Source of the DNA: Crocinitomicaceae bacterium
GTDB lineage: Bacteria > Bacteroidota > Bacteroidia > Flavobacteriales_D > Parvicellaceae
Assembly: GCA_002723085.1 (NCBI GenBank)
Contig: PBNK01000006.1
Span: 1 to 64,000 of the forward strand
Length of the DNA stretch: 64,000 nt
Direction: 5' to 3'
In this document: positions 39,651 to 47,687 of the stretch, in pieces
Numbering within the stretch: the stretch's first letter is position 1
Layout: each line of letters begins with the position of its first letter
Notes under the pieces: model-generated
What the model was told of the DNA's origin: nothing
Databases searched by the model: none
The model's input: only the letters and a program-made list of their open reading frames with translations
Made by a program: the position numbers and the translations under genes

Positions 39651-40145
39651 ATGATTAAATATTTTTTAATCTTTATTTATTTTCTTTTTTCTTTTCAAAA
39701 CTTGAGTTCTCAAGACTCTGATAAAAGAAAATTACAAGTAAAAGGAACCGTTAGGAATATTGAAGGGAAAGTGAAAAATACTACTATAAGAATAGTTTAT
39801 GAAAATGGCGATGTAGATTCTGTCTTTTCCAAAAAAGGAAAGTATAATTTATTATTACAAGTAAATAGAAAAATACTAATTGAATTTATTAATAATGACC
39901 ATTATACTAAAAGAATTGCCTTTAATACTGAAATATTAAAGTCTCAAAAAAGCATACCATTTTTTGACTTAACAATTAATTTAGTTGAAATGGGTGTGTG
40001 GAATATCAAAGAGCAAGATGAAGATATTTTAGATATGCCAGTAGCATACATAAAGTATAATAGCAAAAGAAAAATATGGTATGATCAAAATGCAAAATAC
40101 AGTCGTGTTATTAATAAAAAAATTAAAAGCTTAGGAGTTTTTTAA
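39651..40145 (+). CDS. Exported small beta-domain protein (carboxypeptidase-regulatory-like)
   Basis: 164 aa with a signal peptide ending at NLSSQ (residue about 20). The body begins KRKLQVKGTVRNIEGKVKNT and GKYNLLLQVNRKILIEF, a pattern seen in carboxypeptidase-regulatory-like (transthyretin-fold) domains common in Bacteroidota envelope proteins. The C terminus is basic and lacks a sorting domain, so it is probably periplasmic or outer-membrane associated. It sits just before the giant adhesin gene, 99 nt apart. Function is unknown. Confidence 0.65.
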   Translation: MIKYFLIFIYFLFSFQNLSSQDSDKRKLQVKGTVRNIEGKVKNTTIRIVYENGDVDSVFSKKGKYNLLLQVNRKILIEFINNDHYTKRIAFNTEILKSQKSIPFFDLTINLVEMGVWNIKEQDEDILDMPVAYIKYNSKRKIWYDQNAKYSRVINKKIKSLGVF

Positions 40146-40244: not shown

Positions 40245-43200
40245 ATGAGTAAATTTGATAAGATGATTTTTAAACATTTTAAATTTTATTTTCTATTAAC
40301 CATTATGGTAATGGTCAATAATTTATATTCTCAAAATGTTGTATCTTCTTTTAGCTCAGATGTTTCTTCAGGTTGCTCCCCATTAATTGTAAATTTTAAC
40401 AATACCTCTACAAATGCATCTCAGTATAGTTGGGATTTTGGTAATGGAGCTTCTTCTAATTTGGAACACCCATCTACTACATTTACTCAGCCTGGTTTAT
40501 ACACTGTCATATTAATAACTACTAATCCATCATCAACAGATACACTCATTTCTACTAATTATATTGAGGTTTATGATTTGCCAACAGCAGATTTTTCATT
40601 TTCTTCAAACACGGATTTTTGTGTTTCAACTAATCAAATATCATTTACAAACAATAGTACTAATGCAACTTCATATATATGGGATTTTGGTGATGGAAAT
40701 ACATCTTCTTCAACAGATGCTTCTCATAGTTTTAATTCTGATGGGGATTACACTGTTAAATTAGTAGCATACAACTCTGATGGATGCCCTAATGAAAAAA
40801 TAGTAAGTCCTTTAACTATTTATCCAATTCCACAATTAAATTCTTCAGTTGATTTAAATTTTAGTTGTGATAGCACTAATTCTTTTAATTTTAATTCATC
40901 AGTTTCAAATGTTAATATAACCAATTGGTCATGGGATTATGGTGATGGGAATGTTTCAAATTCATCAAATGGTATTTCATCTTACTCTTTTAATTCTTCT
41001 GGAACTTTTTTCCCAAAAGCAATAGCCATTTCTGATCAAGGTTGTATTGACAGTTCTACTATCGATCCTATATATATTCCAAATCCTATAAATTATAGTC
41101 TATTAAATGATAAATCTAACGGTTGTGCTCCTTTACTAATAAATTTTCATTTGTCACCAAATTCAATCGTAGATAGTATTGAATGGGATTTTGGAGATAC
41201 ATCATTTGTTTCATCTTTTTACAACATTAACCATATATATTCAAATGATGGTTCTTTTCTTCCTAATTTAATTATTTACGATTCTTTAGGATGTGTTAGT
41301 CAATTAACTAGCAATATTACAATTGAAGTAGATTCATTGCCAACAGCAACTTATTCAATAGCGAATAATGTTGGTTGCCCTCCCCTATTAGTTCAATTTA
41401 ACTCAACTACTCATGTTGATAATGCTGTAAGTTGGGATTTTGGAGATACTACTTTTTCAAATGCATTAAATCCAAATCATACATATATATATAATAATGT
41501 TAACTCTCCAAAACTTGAAGTAACAAGTCCAAATGGGTGCAAAGCTTTATATTCTTTACCTGATGTAAATGCTGGTATGGTTTTAAATGAATTTATTTCT
41601 GATAAATCAACTGGATGTGCCCCTCTAGATGTTACATTTATATCAAATGCTCCATCAAATGCTGTCACCTATTTATGGGATTTTGGAGATGGAAACACAT
41701 CTACAGACTTAGATCCTATCCATACCTATGATACAATAGGTAAATATGATGTTAAATTTACTTGTTGGGATTCTTTAGGTTGTAAAGCATTTTATGAAAT
41801 TGATGAAATGATTGAAACTTTTGGAGAAGATGATGTTGTTTTTCCTGAAACTGATACAATACAATCTTGTTCTCCTTACACATATTTCACAGATGCAATT
41901 AACATTGGGCAAAGTTTTTGGAATTGGGATTTTGGTGATGGTACAGTTGATACTGGTGCAAGTCCTTCACATACCTATAATATGCCTGGAAATTACTTAG
42001 TGAAATTAAATGCAGACGCACCTAACGGATGTATGTATAACTCAGCTGACTATGCTTATATTATGATTGATGGAATGACCATTGATTTAGATATTTCTGT
42101 AGATACGGACTGTGATAATGGATCAATAGAAGTAACTAATAATTCTACTGGTATAGCTAATCATTCATGGAATTTTGGCGATAATAGTATTGATTCAGTT
42201 TCGAGTATTCAACATGACTATCCTAATACTGGTCAGTCTTATGTTGTTACTTATACTGCCATATCAAATTCGGGATGTATGAACAAACAATATATTCCAG
42301 TTATTTTTAGTTGTGGAACAGACACAACTATTGCTCCACCAGGATCACCATTACCTATGCCTGAAGTTGATCCAATTGTAATTCTGATTGATCCTAATAC
42401 AAATGCACCAATATTACAAAATTGTGGTCCTCAAGAAGTTAATCTATCAACCCCTTTTTCTTCTGCCCAAAACTTTTTGTGGGAATTTGGAGATGGAGGA
42501 ACTTCTACTGATAAAAATCCATATTATCAATATAATAATTCTGGAACTTTTGATTTAACTCACTATGCTTATCATTCTAATGGTGATATTGATACAATGA
42601 TTATTACGGAGTTTATTAATCAATATGTATTCAGTGCTGATTTTCAATTGACAAAAACTGAACTTTGTAATGAAGCAGAATTTAATTTCACCTCTACATC
42701 ATCTGGTATTGCTTCTTGGGATTGGCAAATTGACAATTTTTCAGTTAGTTCATCCTCATTTGGTTCTGTTGTTTTACCTTTAACTGATTCGGTTAAGCAA
42801 CTAACCCTTATTGCTGTTGATTCATTTGGTTGTGTTGATGTTAAACAACAGAGTTTGTTTTTATATCAACCTATTGTTTTAGTAGATCAAGATACTGTTA
42901 TTTGCTTTGGAAGTCCTTTATCAATAGAGTCTAGTTCTATTGCTGATTATACATATTCATGGGATCTTGATGATGGAACAATTATAACAAATGATACAGC
43001 TATATCTCATACTTATGCAAGTGCTGGAACATATTTAGTTAAGCTTTTATTAACTGATTCTAATGGATGCGTAAGAACGGAAAATATTGATTCGGTACTT
43101 GTCAAGCCTGTCAATTCAGAATTTACCCCAACAACAATAACCCCAATCTGTAAAGGAGACACCTTATCATTTTCAGCAAATGATTTAACAAACTCATCTT

Positions 43201-46160
43201 ATACATGGACTGGTGGAACAATTATTGGTTCTGGTGCGAATGTAGACATTGTTTTTAATACAACAGGCAATCAAATTGTTAAATTAAAGTCTACAAAAGA
43301 TGGTTGTAGTTATACAAATAAATCTGATACTATAGTTGTTAATGAAGCGGAAGCTCACTTTATTTTTGATCAAATTAATGGTTGTTTGCCAATTGAAGTA
43401 AATTTTTCAGACAGTTCTGTAAATGCTGTTCAATGGAATTGGGATTTTGGAGATGGAAATGGTTCCTCAGATGATAACCCGAATCATATTTACACAACAA
43501 TGCCTACTGACAGTGTTACATTAACAATTACTGATAATAACGGATGTCAAAAATCAATTTCTAATACAATAATTAACAGTTTAGATGCTCTTTTCTCTGC
43601 AAATGATACACTTGTTTGTCATGAATCACCTGTAACTTTTTCAACTGTAAATCCATCCATTAGCATATGGAATTGGGATTTTGGAGATGGGAATACTTCT
43701 AATTCACCAAATCCTGTTCATGAATATACAAATACTGGTACATATACTATATCACTTTATGTTTCTGATGGCCAAGGTTGTGAAGATTCTATTCAAAAAA
43801 TTGATTATGTTGATGTGCGCGGTGTTACTGCCAATTTTGATTTTACCTCTCCTAGTCAATGCCCACCAGTAGTGACCACTTTTAATAACACATCAACAGA
43901 TGGAATAAACTATATATGGGATTTTGGAGATGGGGCTAATTCTACTTTAGATAATCCAACTCATATATATTCTAACTCAGGCAGTTATCAAATAATTTTG
44001 TTAGCTACTAATTCATTAGGATGTGTTGATACTTTACTTCATCCTGATTCAATTCTTATACCAGGCCCTGTCGTAGACTTTAGTGTTGATCAAACTTTAG
44101 GTTGTGATTCTTTGACAGTTTCAATTTTAAATAATTCTTCAAATACTGTTTCGTATAATTTTGATTTTGGTGATGGTAATTCATCAACATCAATTAATCC
44201 TACTCATTCATACAGTCAAACAGGGACATTTAACATAACTATGGTTGCAGAAGACTCATCTGGATGTCAATCTTATTTAACTTATCCTAATTCTATTGTA
44301 ATTAGTCCTTCTCCTATAATTAATTTTAGTTTACCTGGTTCAGATTTTTGTGTTAATGATGTTTTTCAGATTCAAAATTTAACAACAAATGCAGACACAT
44401 ACTCATGGAATTTTGATTTACAAAATTTAAATGGTGTTTCGCCATCATTTACGGTAAACAACCCAGGTTTTTTACCTATTAAAATGATTGCATCAAATTC
44501 AAATGGATGTATCGATTCTACATTAGCATTTGTAACTGGTCATCAAATACCTGCAGTTTCCATTATTGACCCAGGTGTTATATGTATTAATGAAGGTGTT
44601 ATTCAGCTTAACTCATTAAATGCGCAATCAATAGGAGACATATATTGGACTGGTGATTGTGTAATTGATTCAATTAACGGAATCATTGACCCAAGTTTAT
44701 CTTCAAATATTAATATTAATGCCTATAACAATGGAATTTGTCCAAGCACTGATAATATTTTATTACAAGTTGAAACGCCTCCTGATCCTACGATTATGTC
44801 TGGCGATGAAATCTATTGTTATGGTGAATCTATTCCTGCTCCACTAACAAAAAGTCCTGGTGGAACTTGGTATGGTCCATTAGCTAGTTCATCAACAGGC
44901 TTAATTACAAGTACTCTTCCTGTTGGAATTCATTACTATACTTACATTACTAGTAGCCAAAATTGTTATGATACTTCAGAGTATTCAATAGATGTACATC
45001 ATCAACCAAATGCAACTATTTCAGGACCAACAAATATTTGCGATAATTTAATCACTCTTCAATTATCTTCTGCTGATAATGGTGGTGTATGGTCAGGACC
45101 AAGTATAAACGATAGTGCAATTATCAATGTTTCTAATTTAGGTATTGGAAGTTATACATACACTTATGAAATTAGTGGTTTTTGTAACGATATAGATTCG
45201 ATTGATATAGAATTACATCAGTTTATAGAAGCTGAGATAGTTGATCCTATTGCTGTATGTGAAGGTGAAGATTCTATAGCTGTAGTTGCAATGAGAAATA
45301 CTGGGACTTGGTCTGGGTTGACTGCAAATTATTTAGGAGATGGTGTTTTTAAAGTTGATCAACTTGATGATGGTACATACCCTATTTATTATACTTTAGA
45401 TGGATATTGTCCGGATACTGATACTTCTTATATTATAATTAATCCTGAACCTGAAATAGATGTTGATTTAACACAAGTATTACCATGTATAAGTTATCCT
45501 ATTGAAATTCAAAACAATTCAACCAATGTAATAAATGAAACATATTCATGGTATATAAATGATTCTATTTATTCAAATGAAAGTAATCCAATATTTGATT
45601 TACCTATAGGAGCATATAAACTTAAAATTCATGTTGTAAATCAATTTTCTTGTGAAAATGAAATAAATATTTCTGATGATGTGATAATTTATGACACATC
45701 TGCTCTTCCTTCTCCAGAAATTATAAGATCAACAGTGCTAGATGATATAGATGTTTATACTGAGTGGTATCCGAAAGAATTGCCAACAAATCGTGTGAAA
45801 GAATATGTGATTTTTAAATCCAATGGTCAAAATGAAGAATATGAGTATTTAGCAACATTAGATAAAACGGTAAATCATTACACAGATATTAATGTTGATG
45901 TTTTTGAAAATAGCTATACATATTATATTGTTTCAGTTAATGAGTGTAATGTTACTTCAAATGCTTCAAACATTAGTAGTTCAGTGCTTTTAGGTTATGA
46001 TAAACCTAATGATTATCAGACTGTTTTAAAGTGGACATCATATAAAGAATGGAAAGAAGGGGTTAACAGATATGAAATTCAGAAGTTAAATAAGTATGGT
46101 GAATGGGAGATTTTTAAAGTAGTTAACCATGATGTGAATCAAATATTAATTGACGAATGA
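40245..46160 (+). CDS. Giant PKD-repeat surface adhesin, lacking its own sorting domain
   Basis: 1971 aa. A second start (Met7, 40263) gives a compact signal peptide MIFKHFKFYFLLTIMVMV ending near LYSQ. About 14-16 PKD domains follow, each with the core W-D-F-G-D-G and spaced by about 85 aa (SYIWDFGDGNTSS, WNWDFGDGNGSSD and so on). Three Ig-like segments with C-Y-G-E or similar cysteines come next (about residues 1500-1750), then two fibronectin-like units; the second breaks off at VNHDVNQILIDE. The stop TGA at 46158 comes before the expected type B sorting domain, which is encoded in the same frame by the next ORF at 46185. Without it the protein could not use T9SS. It is likely a gliding or attachment adhesin if the split is bridged. 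Confidence 0.88.
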   Translation: MSKFDKMIFKHFKFYFLLTIMVMVNNLYSQNVVSSFSSDVSSGCSPLIVNFNNTSTNASQYSWDFGNGASSNLEHPSTTFTQPGLYTVILITTNPSSTDTLISTNYIEVYDLPTADFSFSSNTDFCVSTNQISFTNNSTNATSYIWDFGDGNTSSSTDASHSFNSDGDYTVKLVAYNSDGCPNEKIVSPLTIYPIPQLNSSVDLNFSCDSTNSFNFNSSVSNVNITNWSWDYGDGNVSNSSNGISSYSFNSSGTFFPKAIAISDQGCIDSSTIDPIYIPNPINYSLLNDKSNGCAPLLINFHLSPNSIVDSIEWDFGDTSFVSSFYNINHIYSNDGSFLPNLIIYDSLGCVSQLTSNITIEVDSLPTATYSIANNVGCPPLLVQFNSTTHVDNAVSWDFGDTTFSNALNPNHTYIYNNVNSPKLEVTSPNGCKALYSLPDVNAGMVLNEFISDKSTGCAPLDVTFISNAPSNAVTYLWDFGDGNTSTDLDPIHTYDTIGKYDVKFTCWDSLGCKAFYEIDEMIETFGEDDVVFPETDTIQSCSPYTYFTDAINIGQSFWNWDFGDGTVDTGASPSHTYNMPGNYLVKLNADAPNGCMYNSADYAYIMIDGMTIDLDISVDTDCDNGSIEVTNNSTGIANHSWNFGDNSIDSVSSIQHDYPNTGQSYVVTYTAISNSGCMNKQYIPVIFSCGTDTTIAPPGSPLPMPEVDPIVILIDPNTNAPILQNCGPQEVNLSTPFSSAQNFLWEFGDGGTSTDKNPYYQYNNSGTFDLTHYAYHSNGDIDTMIITEFINQYVFSADFQLTKTELCNEAEFNFTSTSSGIASWDWQIDNFSVSSSSFGSVVLPLTDSVKQLTLIAVDSFGCVDVKQQSLFLYQPIVLVDQDTVICFGSPLSIESSSIADYTYSWDLDDGTIITNDTAISHTYASAGTYLVKLLLTDSNGCVRTENIDSVLVKPVNSEFTPTTITPICKGDTLSFSANDLTNSSYTWTGGTIIGSGANVDIVFNTTGNQIVKLKSTKDGCSYTNKSDTIVVNEAEAHFIFDQINGCLPIEVNFSDSSVNAVQWNWDFGDGNGSSDDNPNHIYTTMPTDSVTLTITDNNGCQKSISNTIINSLDALFSANDTLVCHESPVTFSTVNPSISIWNWDFGDGNTSNSPNPVHEYTNTGTYTISLYVSDGQGCEDSIQKIDYVDVRGVTANFDFTSPSQCPPVVTTFNNTSTDGINYIWDFGDGANSTLDNPTHIYSNSGSYQIILLATNSLGCVDTLLHPDSILIPGPVVDFSVDQTLGCDSLTVSILNNSSNTVSYNFDFGDGNSSTSINPTHSYSQTGTFNITMVAEDSSGCQSYLTYPNSIVISPSPIINFSLPGSDFCVNDVFQIQNLTTNADTYSWNFDLQNLNGVSPSFTVNNPGFLPIKMIASNSNGCIDSTLAFVTGHQIPAVSIIDPGVICINEGVIQLNSLNAQSIGDIYWTGDCVIDSINGIIDPSLSSNININAYNNGICPSTDNILLQVETPPDPTIMSGDEIYCYGESIPAPLTKSPGGTWYGPLASSSTGLITSTLPVGIHYYTYITSSQNCYDTSEYSIDVHHQPNATISGPTNICDNLITLQLSSADNGGVWSGPSINDSAIINVSNLGIGSYTYTYEISGFCNDIDSIDIELHQFIEAEIVDPIAVCEGEDSIAVVAMRNTGTWSGLTANYLGDGVFKVDQLDDGTYPIYYTLDGYCPDTDTSYIIINPEPEIDVDLTQVLPCISYPIEIQNNSTNVINETYSWYINDSIYSNESNPIFDLPIGAYKLKIHVVNQFSCENEINISDDVIIYDTSALPSPEIIRSTVLDDIDVYTEWYPKELPTNRVKEYVIFKSNGQNEEYEYLATLDKTVNHYTDINVDVFENSYTYYIVSVNECNVTSNASNISSSVLLGYDKPNDYQTVLKWTSYKEWKEGVNRYEIQKLNKYGEWEIFKVVNHDVNQILIDE

Positions 46161-46289
46161 TTTAAATTAAATTGTAAATAAATAATGTTAAATAAAATAA
46201 AATATTCATTTTTAACTGTAATTATAGTTTTAATAATTGCTCCATTGTTTTTGTTTATTGCTCAAAACAGTAAGCCAGTATATAATGAA
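46155..46289 (+). other. Extra in-frame segment with two stops separating adhesin and sorting domain
   Basis: The adhesin and the sorting-domain ORF share one frame. Between them lie stops TGA (46158) and TAA (46179), then ATG 46185 and a hydrophobic stretch. Aligned with the preceding fibronectin-like unit (YTD-11 aa-YYIVSV), the unit continues as LID / NSKPVYNENLD-IYRIVAV, so roughly 46155-46265 is surplus. Short direct repeats flank possible borders: GAA at 46155 and 46287, ATTG at 46149 and 46257. Insertion, programmed bypass or true gene split are all possible. Confidence 0.55.
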
Positions 46290-46652
46290 AATTTAGATAT
46301 ATATAGAATTGTTGCAGTTAGAAATGAAAACGATCAAATTGTTAGTGTTTCTAATACGATATCTGTTGAAAAACCTTTAGCTATTTATGCCCCAAATGCA
46401 TTTACACCTGATGGGGATGGTGTGAATGATCAATTTACCATTGTTGGTCAGGGAGCCATTGATTATAAACTTGAAATTTTTAATAGATGGGGCCAAATGG
46501 TTTATAAATCTGAAGATATTACTGTTTCTTGGTCAGGAGATTTTCAAGGTAGTCCAGCTCCAATGGGTACTTATGTGTATAAAGTAAAAACAAATGCCTT
46601 TGATGGTGGTGAAAGAATGATAAAATCAGGAACTGTTGTTTTAATTAGATAA
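46185..46652 (+). CDS. T9SS type B sorting-domain protein (detached C terminus of the adhesin)
   Basis: 155 aa. Residues 1-27 are a basic start plus a hydrophobic helix (KIKYSFLTVIIVLIIAPLFL) that could act as a signal peptide or anchor. Residues about 40-65 (IYRIVAVRNENDQIVSVSNT) are the last strands of a fibronectin-like unit whose first half is at the end of the upstream adhesin. Residues about 70-155 form a type B sorting domain (YAPNAFTPDGDGVNDQFTI ... EIFNRWGQMVYKS ... PMGTYVYKV). As a free protein, a sorting domain without cargo would be unusual. It lies 24 nt after the adhesin stop and just before PorP/SprF. Confidence 0.8.
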   Translation: MLNKIKYSFLTVIIVLIIAPLFLFIAQNSKPVYNENLDIYRIVAVRNENDQIVSVSNTISVEKPLAIYAPNAFTPDGDGVNDQFTIVGQGAIDYKLEIFNRWGQMVYKSEDITVSWSGDFQGSPAPMGTYVYKVKTNAFDGGERMIKSGTVVLIR

Positions 46653-46712: not shown

Positions 46713-47687
46713 TTGTTTGCTTTAACAAGTTCTGTAATCAAAAGTCAAGATCCTCAGTTCAGTCAATTTTATGCAAATTCACTTTATTTGAATCCTGCTT
46801 TTGCAGGCAGAGATATGAGTCCTCGTTTTCATTCTGGTTATAGAAATCAATGGCCAGGTTTAGATGCTTATGTAACATATAATATTGAATATGATCAGTT
46901 TTCAAGAGATTTGCATGGAGGTGTAGGATTTCAATTTTTGTATGATAAAACTGGTGGTGGAATTTTAAATACTGGTGTATTTGCTGGTTGTTATGCTTAT
47001 CAATTAAAAATAAATAGAAAATGGTCTTTAAATTTTGGACTTAAAGGTGCTTTTGTCCAGAAAAGTTTAAATTTCAACCTTGCTACTTTTGGCGATCAAT
47101 TTGATAATAGTAGAGGGCAAATCTACCAAACAAACCAACAACAAGGTAACAATTCTAGCTATTTTGATTTCGGAAGTGGCCTTATATTATATTCTGATAA
47201 TTTATTTGGTGGAGTCTCATTTAACCATTTAACTAGACCTAATGAATCTCTTTATTTTAGTTCAAATAATGATGCAAGAATACCCATTAGAAGCACGGTT
47301 CATGGCGGTTACAAATTAAGAGTTTTAAAAAACGGTCTTTTTCACAAAGAATTATTTATAGCACCAAATGTTTTGTTGGATTTCCAATCAAATTTTAAAC
47401 AATTAAATTTTGGTTCTTATTTTTTAGATGGAATTTATGGAATTGGCATATGGTATCGTCATACTAGCTTTACAAATCCAAATGGTGATTTTTCACTTCA
47501 AGATGGATTAATTTTAATGGGTGGGATTGAAACATCAACCATGAGGCTTTGTTATTCATATGATATTAGTTTATCTTCTGTTGTTGTAGCTGCGCCAGGA
47601 GCTCATGAAATATCAATAACTTTTGATTTACCAGAAATACATAAACCTTCAAAAAAATTTAGGGTAATTCAATGCCCAATGTTTTAA
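46713..47687 (+). CDS. PorP/SprF-like T9SS outer-membrane beta-barrel protein
   Basis: About 324 aa, PorP/SprF family, which forms outer-membrane barrels needed for secretion of type B cargo. The hallmark start of the mature protein, SQDPQFSQFYANSLYLNPAF, is followed by alternating beta strands and a C-terminal strand. Start choice is a problem: TTG 46713 leaves only MFALTSSVIKSQ, a clipped signal peptide. The frame upstream reads AIRVVLIILFALTSSVIKSQ back to a TAA at 46686; TTG AAA AAT lies just before that stop. A rare ATC start at 46692 would give a perfect signal peptide. It is adjacent to the split adhesin/sorting domain, consistent with a dedicated partner. Confidence 0.88.
   Translation: MFALTSSVIKSQDPQFSQFYANSLYLNPAFAGRDMSPRFHSGYRNQWPGLDAYVTYNIEYDQFSRDLHGGVGFQFLYDKTGGGILNTGVFAGCYAYQLKINRKWSLNFGLKGAFVQKSLNFNLATFGDQFDNSRGQIYQTNQQQGNNSSYFDFGSGLILYSDNLFGGVSFNHLTRPNESLYFSSNNDARIPIRSTVHGGYKLRVLKNGLFHKELFIAPNVLLDFQSNFKQLNFGSYFLDGIYGIGIWYRHTSFTNPNGDFSLQDGLILMGGIETSTMRLCYSYDISLSSVVVAAPGAHEISITFDLPEIHKPSKKFRVIQCPMF

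Follow-up and report, generated by a model that had tools for sequence, protein, structure and literature searches.

The divided adhesin locus

The T9SS recognises its cargo by a C-terminal signal that is part of the cargo chain, and cargo is sought in genomes through that signal. The window analysed here (the whole stretch of 64,000 nucleotides) contains a giant adhesin gene that ends inside a domain, followed by a short open reading frame (ORF) that holds the rest of this domain together with a sorting domain. The question is whether these are the pieces of one interrupted gene or two proteins and, if the latter, how the adhesin is recognised for export.

The adhesin gene (40245..46160, plus strand; delineated from the ORF listing, Pfam and NCBIfam models) is an ORF of 1971 aa that encodes a signal peptide, about 14 PKD domains (Pfam PKD_4 in 14 stretches), one complete fibronectin-like (FN3) unit and a further FN3 unit that is cut after strand E. 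The C-terminal half domain (strands A-E, 45975..46157, plus strand), with an end point that is conserved according to alignments and to the tails past the profile end, reads ..EWEIFKVVNHDVNQILIDE*, that is, ..NQILIDE directly before the stop codon TGA (46158-46160, plus strand). The initial annotation had placed the end of the adhesin in the middle of a fibronectin-like unit; its coordinates are right, and alignment with homologues in which the two parts are fused confirms the unit. The 1971-aa ORF contains no CHU_C domain (Pfam), no match to the type B C-terminal domain (CTD) model and no other recognised T9SS signal. A T9SS type B substrate carries the CTD on the same chain, and the adhesin alone, with an ORF that finishes at half an FN3 domain, falls short of this definition.

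The adhesin stop is followed by an intergenic spacer of 24 nt (46161..46184, plus strand) that contains an in-frame TAA (46179-46181), and then by a gene for a protein of 155 aa (46185..46652, plus strand, ATG 46185; supported by the ORF, orthologues and dN/dS). This small protein consists of a Sec-type signal peptide, MLNKIKYSFLTVIIVLIIAPLFLFIAQ (46185..46265, plus strand; leader comparison and hydropathy, the end point inferred from the conserved ..AQ), FN3 strands F and G (YRIVAVRN..VSVSNTIS, 46293..46370, plus strand; alignment with fused homologues and AlphaFold2 strands 37-45 and 53-62), and a type B T9SS C-terminal sorting domain (CHU_C, 46389..46649, plus strand). The CTD matches PF13585 with E=1.3e-19 and 70.5 bits (cut-off 27) and TIGR04131 with about 54 bits (54.3; cut-off 35), in agreement with the earlier reading that the remainder of the unit and a type B sorting domain continue in the same frame past TAA 46179, from ATG 46185. 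The next gene encodes an outer-membrane protein of the PorP/SprF family (46713..47687, plus strand; PF11751 E=1.5e-55, TIGR03519 218 bits), likely the shuttle and anchor of the CTD; its start codon is listed as TTG, and the true start may be further upstream. With its type B CTD, its Sec-like leader and this PorP/SprF gene nearby, the small protein shows the sequence features of a T9SS type B substrate. On the 5' side of the adhesin, positions 39651-40145 encode an exported protein of 164 aa without a Pfam or NCBIfam match; a similar gene (L031, 10753-11262) also lies upstream of an adhesin, so that this protein may be a member of the adhesin gene cluster.

A gene boundary with variable genomic context

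A profile built from the last 61 residues of the adhesin was run on 299 genomes of the order, with matches in 17 genomes, all of the split type, and on a class-wide sample of 395 genomes, with matches in 53. The matching proteins fall into two discrete types: those that stop 0-7 residues past the match, and those that run on for another 123-144 residues, which comprise strands F-G and the CTD in the same chain (the fused homologues). In the alignment, the FN3 unit is uninterrupted in the fused homologues, whereas the split pairs break between strands E and F. Both genes are present in 56 genomes, where the adhesin stops at this FN3 point, mostly within 0-7 residues, an end position that is shared by four families within the order and by many across the class.

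When relatives were searched with the small protein, eleven genomes of the same family were found to encode a counterpart as an ORF on its own (about 150-170 aa, 47-59% identity). In those that also have the upstream gene, the end of the adhesin is unchanged, and the start of the small ORF follows after about 10-100 nt; among more distant genomes, the gap reaches about 520 nt in locus L035. The relative frame of the two ORFs among orthologues is 0, 1 or 2, and the close relatives L021 and L023 (dN of the mature small protein 0.018) are one net spacer base apart and hence in different frames. Of the 56 genomes, 16 have the small gene downstream of the adhesin (in all three frames) and 18 have it upstream; one has it on the opposite strand, and in the other 21 it is on a different contig. 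Some of the last 21 may be neighbours in fragmented assemblies; fragmentation does not explain the unlinked state in assemblies of 10-30 contigs, such as G604 and G430. Also among the more distant genomes, the two genes are head to head on opposite strands in L034 (seen again as L065), and in L033 the small gene and PorP lack an adjoining adhesin. The L065 contig (CATLPG010000040.1) is titled Saccharospirillaceae and yet carries a Bacteroidota T9SS adhesin pair; the title of this MAG looks wrong.

This variability bears directly on the junction in the window, which had been taken for an insert splitting one gene. The supposed insert is actually the 24 nt of intergenic DNA past the stop together with the codons of the signal peptide. 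The small ORF does share the frame of the adhesin ORF, and this has to be put down to chance, as orthologous pairs occur in all three relative frames. In T4 gene 60 bypassing, matching codons stand before the stop and after the gap, and the window resembles it in having such codons on both sides of the gap. The GAA pair is present as described (46155-46157 and 46287-46289); it is no evidence for bypass because, at the 2.7% GAA frequency of the adhesin, chance alone would place one or more in-frame GAA codons in a stretch of 50 codons in 75% of cases. Unlike in gene 60, the gap in the window is made up of a gene boundary and a signal peptide of a type that the orthologues share, and neither frame nor gene order is conserved. 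A bypass of the gene 60 type calls for both parts in cis, in downstream order and with conserved take-off and landing sites, and this candidate was rejected because 40 of the 56 genomes have the small gene elsewhere, namely upstream, on the opposite strand or unlinked. The initial annotation had set the comparison of orthologues over the junction as a test of bypass, and the two ORFs recur in other relative frames and gene orders, which refutes it; programmed bypass or stop readthrough uniting the two ORFs, for which the shared frame and the GAA before the stop and at 46287 are the arguments, accordingly retains a negligible probability. The varied gene order means that no translational link can account for the pair and that the connection between the two genes lies at the protein level.

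A recent in-frame insertion that inactivated the adhesin, or an artefact of assembly, would fit the fact that the adhesin ORF does finish inside a domain. Both are refuted by the same end point and a separate small gene in dozens of independent assemblies, by conservation across the class and by purifying selection on the small gene; we give this explanation virtually no credence. It is near certain that the adhesin and the small protein are two separate proteins.

Co-occurrence and origin of the split

At the first threshold, 35 genomes of the class sample contain a split-type adhesin, and the small gene is present in all 35. This count includes G382, in which the adhesin end lies in an open frame of 69 aa (L292, G382:C3 about 85186) and is apparently frameshifted, with the small gene kept; the frameshift is apparently a sequencing error or decay. 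Six further genomes of the class initially showed the small protein only, and a broader adhesin profile then found a split adhesin in all six, ending 1-23 residues beyond the match, which brings the class sample to 41 genomes with a stand-alone small gene and a split adhesin in 41 of 41. In the order sample, the small gene is present in 16 of the 17 genomes with a split adhesin. Contig ends intrude in several cases: the G006 contig has the adhesin and stops about 200 nt past it; in G022, the small gene has as its head-to-head neighbour a large protein of which the contig end leaves the N-terminal part; and in G023, the small gene itself is at a contig end. Genomes that encode only fused FN3-CTD homologues lack the stand-alone small gene, and G371 encodes a split pair and a fused paralogue together. 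Fisher tests at the first threshold give p=3e-44 (class) and 6e-22 (order), both overstated by the kinship of the genomes; the variety of families and gene orders is a better argument than these values.

In a tree of the 41 split pairs (adhesin end and small protein concatenated) and 31 fused homologues, the split pairs fall on one side of a branch with support of 100/99. Judging from this sequence tree, the split was probably one old event; its direction was likely from fused to split.

Conservation of the small protein

The small protein of the orthologues always has the same order of parts, that is, leader, strands F-G and CTD. The leaders are variable and share little sequence; as judged by inspection and hydropathy, all are Sec-like, and most end in AQ, GQ or SQ. 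The F-G strands and the CTD are conserved. Of six pairs compared, five have a dN/dS of 0.04-0.17 for the mature small protein and one, a very close pair, of 0.4, and the leaders evolve faster; these estimates indicate that purifying selection acts on the mature small protein. In three genomes of genus g4 (L027:9742-9800, L030:8989-9040 and L031 around 4842, minus strand), an ATG is missing near the leader of the small gene, which seems to begin with a TTG 20 nt past the adhesin stop; the junction DNA of this genus (..AATGAATAATTATA..TTTAG) is better conserved than the leader codons. A PorP/SprF gene is close to the small gene also in L064, L068, L265 and others, and in many genomes with distant small genes, a single-sequence search did not recognise one beside it.

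At the sequence level, the conserved features are thus two separate genes that each encode a leader, an FN3 domain of which each gene supplies a part, and a CTD that is restricted to the small protein. Strands A-E are encoded in the adhesin and strands F-G in the small protein, contiguous in the fused homologues, which is the sequence pattern of strand complementation. Among the options raised in the initial annotation, the two-protein design with a hydrophobic leader that exports a free sorting domain is the one that the orthologues support.

Structure prediction

AlphaFold2 was given the read-through chain of the window, with both stops as residues, and 79 alignment rows, each covering one half, the halves never being paired. 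In a first alignment (A4, two FN3 units per adhesin row), MAFFT placed the adhesin rows over the small protein; it was replaced by an alignment with half-domain adhesin rows (A5), which aligned cleanly. The resulting one-chain model has a pLDDT of 86 and a pTM of 0.74, with 91-96 in the half FN3 domain, 53-61 in the leader and 93-98 in the CTD. Strands F-G reach a pLDDT of about 80-92 next to the adhesin half vs 65-77 without it: the small protein alone, modelled with the same small rows, gives 77, 66 and 65 over residues 31-60 and above 90 in the CTD. The top PDB matches of the joined model in Foldseek are mainly tandem FN3 proteins, e.g. contactins and fibronectin. The higher order of F-G in the presence of the adhesin half supports docking of the halves in the model without proving it, as this support comes from a single read-through chain.

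A proposed two-chain T9SS substrate

Taken together, these observations make it quite probable that the pair is an old split T9SS substrate, in which the sorting domain is given in trans by strand complementation of the split FN3 domain. The adhesin and the small CTD protein would each be exported through Sec by their own signal peptides, and the half domain of the adhesin would be completed in the periplasm by the F-G hairpin of its small partner. This non-covalent joint would place the CTD on the adhesin in trans; the complex would then pass through the T9SS and be held at the surface by the PorP/SprF protein that is encoded next door in the window. The small protein would accordingly be the sorting and anchoring subunit of the large one. 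We consider it reasonably likely that this is a class-wide mode of T9SS export with the sorting signal outside the cargo chain: in the periplasm, a small sorting subunit would clip onto the half FN3 domain of a giant adhesin and serve as the non-covalent, replaceable tail through which the adhesin is secreted and anchored. We know of no T9SS precedent for the export of a ~200 kDa adhesin via a non-covalent partner. The proposal is compatible with what is established for type B CTD proteins, which depend on a cognate PorP/SprF shuttle and require for secretion up to 235 residues, more than the conserved CTD (PMC12618676, PMC10202324), and which are held at the surface by PorP-like proteins (PMC9143113).

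The two proteins could instead be a functionally linked secreted pair that does not interact by complementation, the half FN3 domain and the F-G strands being relics of an old gene split. The small protein would then work by itself, e.g. capping PorP/SprF or binding it as a ligand, and export or retention of the adhesin would be achieved by other means. The type B protein PG1035 of Porphyromonas gingivalis has been proposed to cap PorP (PMC9143113). Also in line with this explanation are G013 and G020, two genomes of genus g6 (L033:9161-10792 and L032), which encode PorP/SprF and the small protein but in which a split adhesin was not recognised; their genus-mate G006 has the adhesin. This points either to divergence of the adhesin in these two genomes or to a different partner of their small protein. 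Relics, however, would not retain the end point and the F-G residues class-wide, and neither the near 1:1 co-occurrence, even of unlinked genes, nor the lack of another recognised T9SS signal on the adhesin fits this explanation, which we regard as unlikely. Covalent linkage of the exported halves after translation, by an isopeptide bond or transpeptidation, is very improbable: PorU is known to process T9SS substrates with type A CTDs in a sortase-like manner (PMC10202324), but neither PorU nor PorV is needed for type B secretion (PMC9143113).

Comparison with known systems

The closest parallels on the T9SS side are the Flavobacterium johnsoniae pairs SprB-SprF and Fjoh_3952-Fjoh_3951, which have in common with the window the type B CTD, the large repetitive adhesin and, as in several relatives too, the PorP/SprF gene directly downstream. 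These systems carry the CTD in the adhesin chain, whereas in the window it is on a separate exported protein (PMC12618676). The PG1035-PorP-PorE system of P. gingivalis is alike in that a type B CTD protein is held at the surface by a PorP-like protein; PG1035 migrates at about 50 kDa and is not described as supplying half of a domain in a different protein (PMC9143113).

Two loci of genus g4 (L038:3311-6599 and L039:1717-5003) encode two stand-alone small CTD proteins of 166 and 176-188 aa that are not of the F-G type. Their neighbours are a repetitive fibre-like protein and a ~640-aa protein resembling a PorP/SprF-OmpA fusion, and here too the sorting domain may be on a chain of its own. Donor-strand complementation is the assembly principle of P. 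gingivalis fimbriae and of chaperone-usher pili, and the likeness is that an incomplete beta-sandwich of one exported protein would be filled by strands of another. Unlike in pili, the strands would be those of a two-strand FN3 hairpin that carries a sorting signal, and the system would be the T9SS; the likeness is one of principle, and homology is not claimed. In the searchable literature, we found no description of T9SS export by split substrates, donor strands or piggybacking. Each of the elements is known singly, namely type B substrates, PorP/SprF shuttles and strand complementation; the searchable papers contained no T9SS adhesin with its sorting domain encoded by a second gene whose product fits a split FN3 domain, and this combination appears to be new.

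If the proposal is true, the naturally split FN3 domain could become a protein-joining tag. It would also become testable why type B signals need residues outside the CTD and whether the T9SS transports multi-chain complexes, and giant adhesins devoid of a CTD would belong to the T9SS via a partner, having been overlooked by CTD-based searches.
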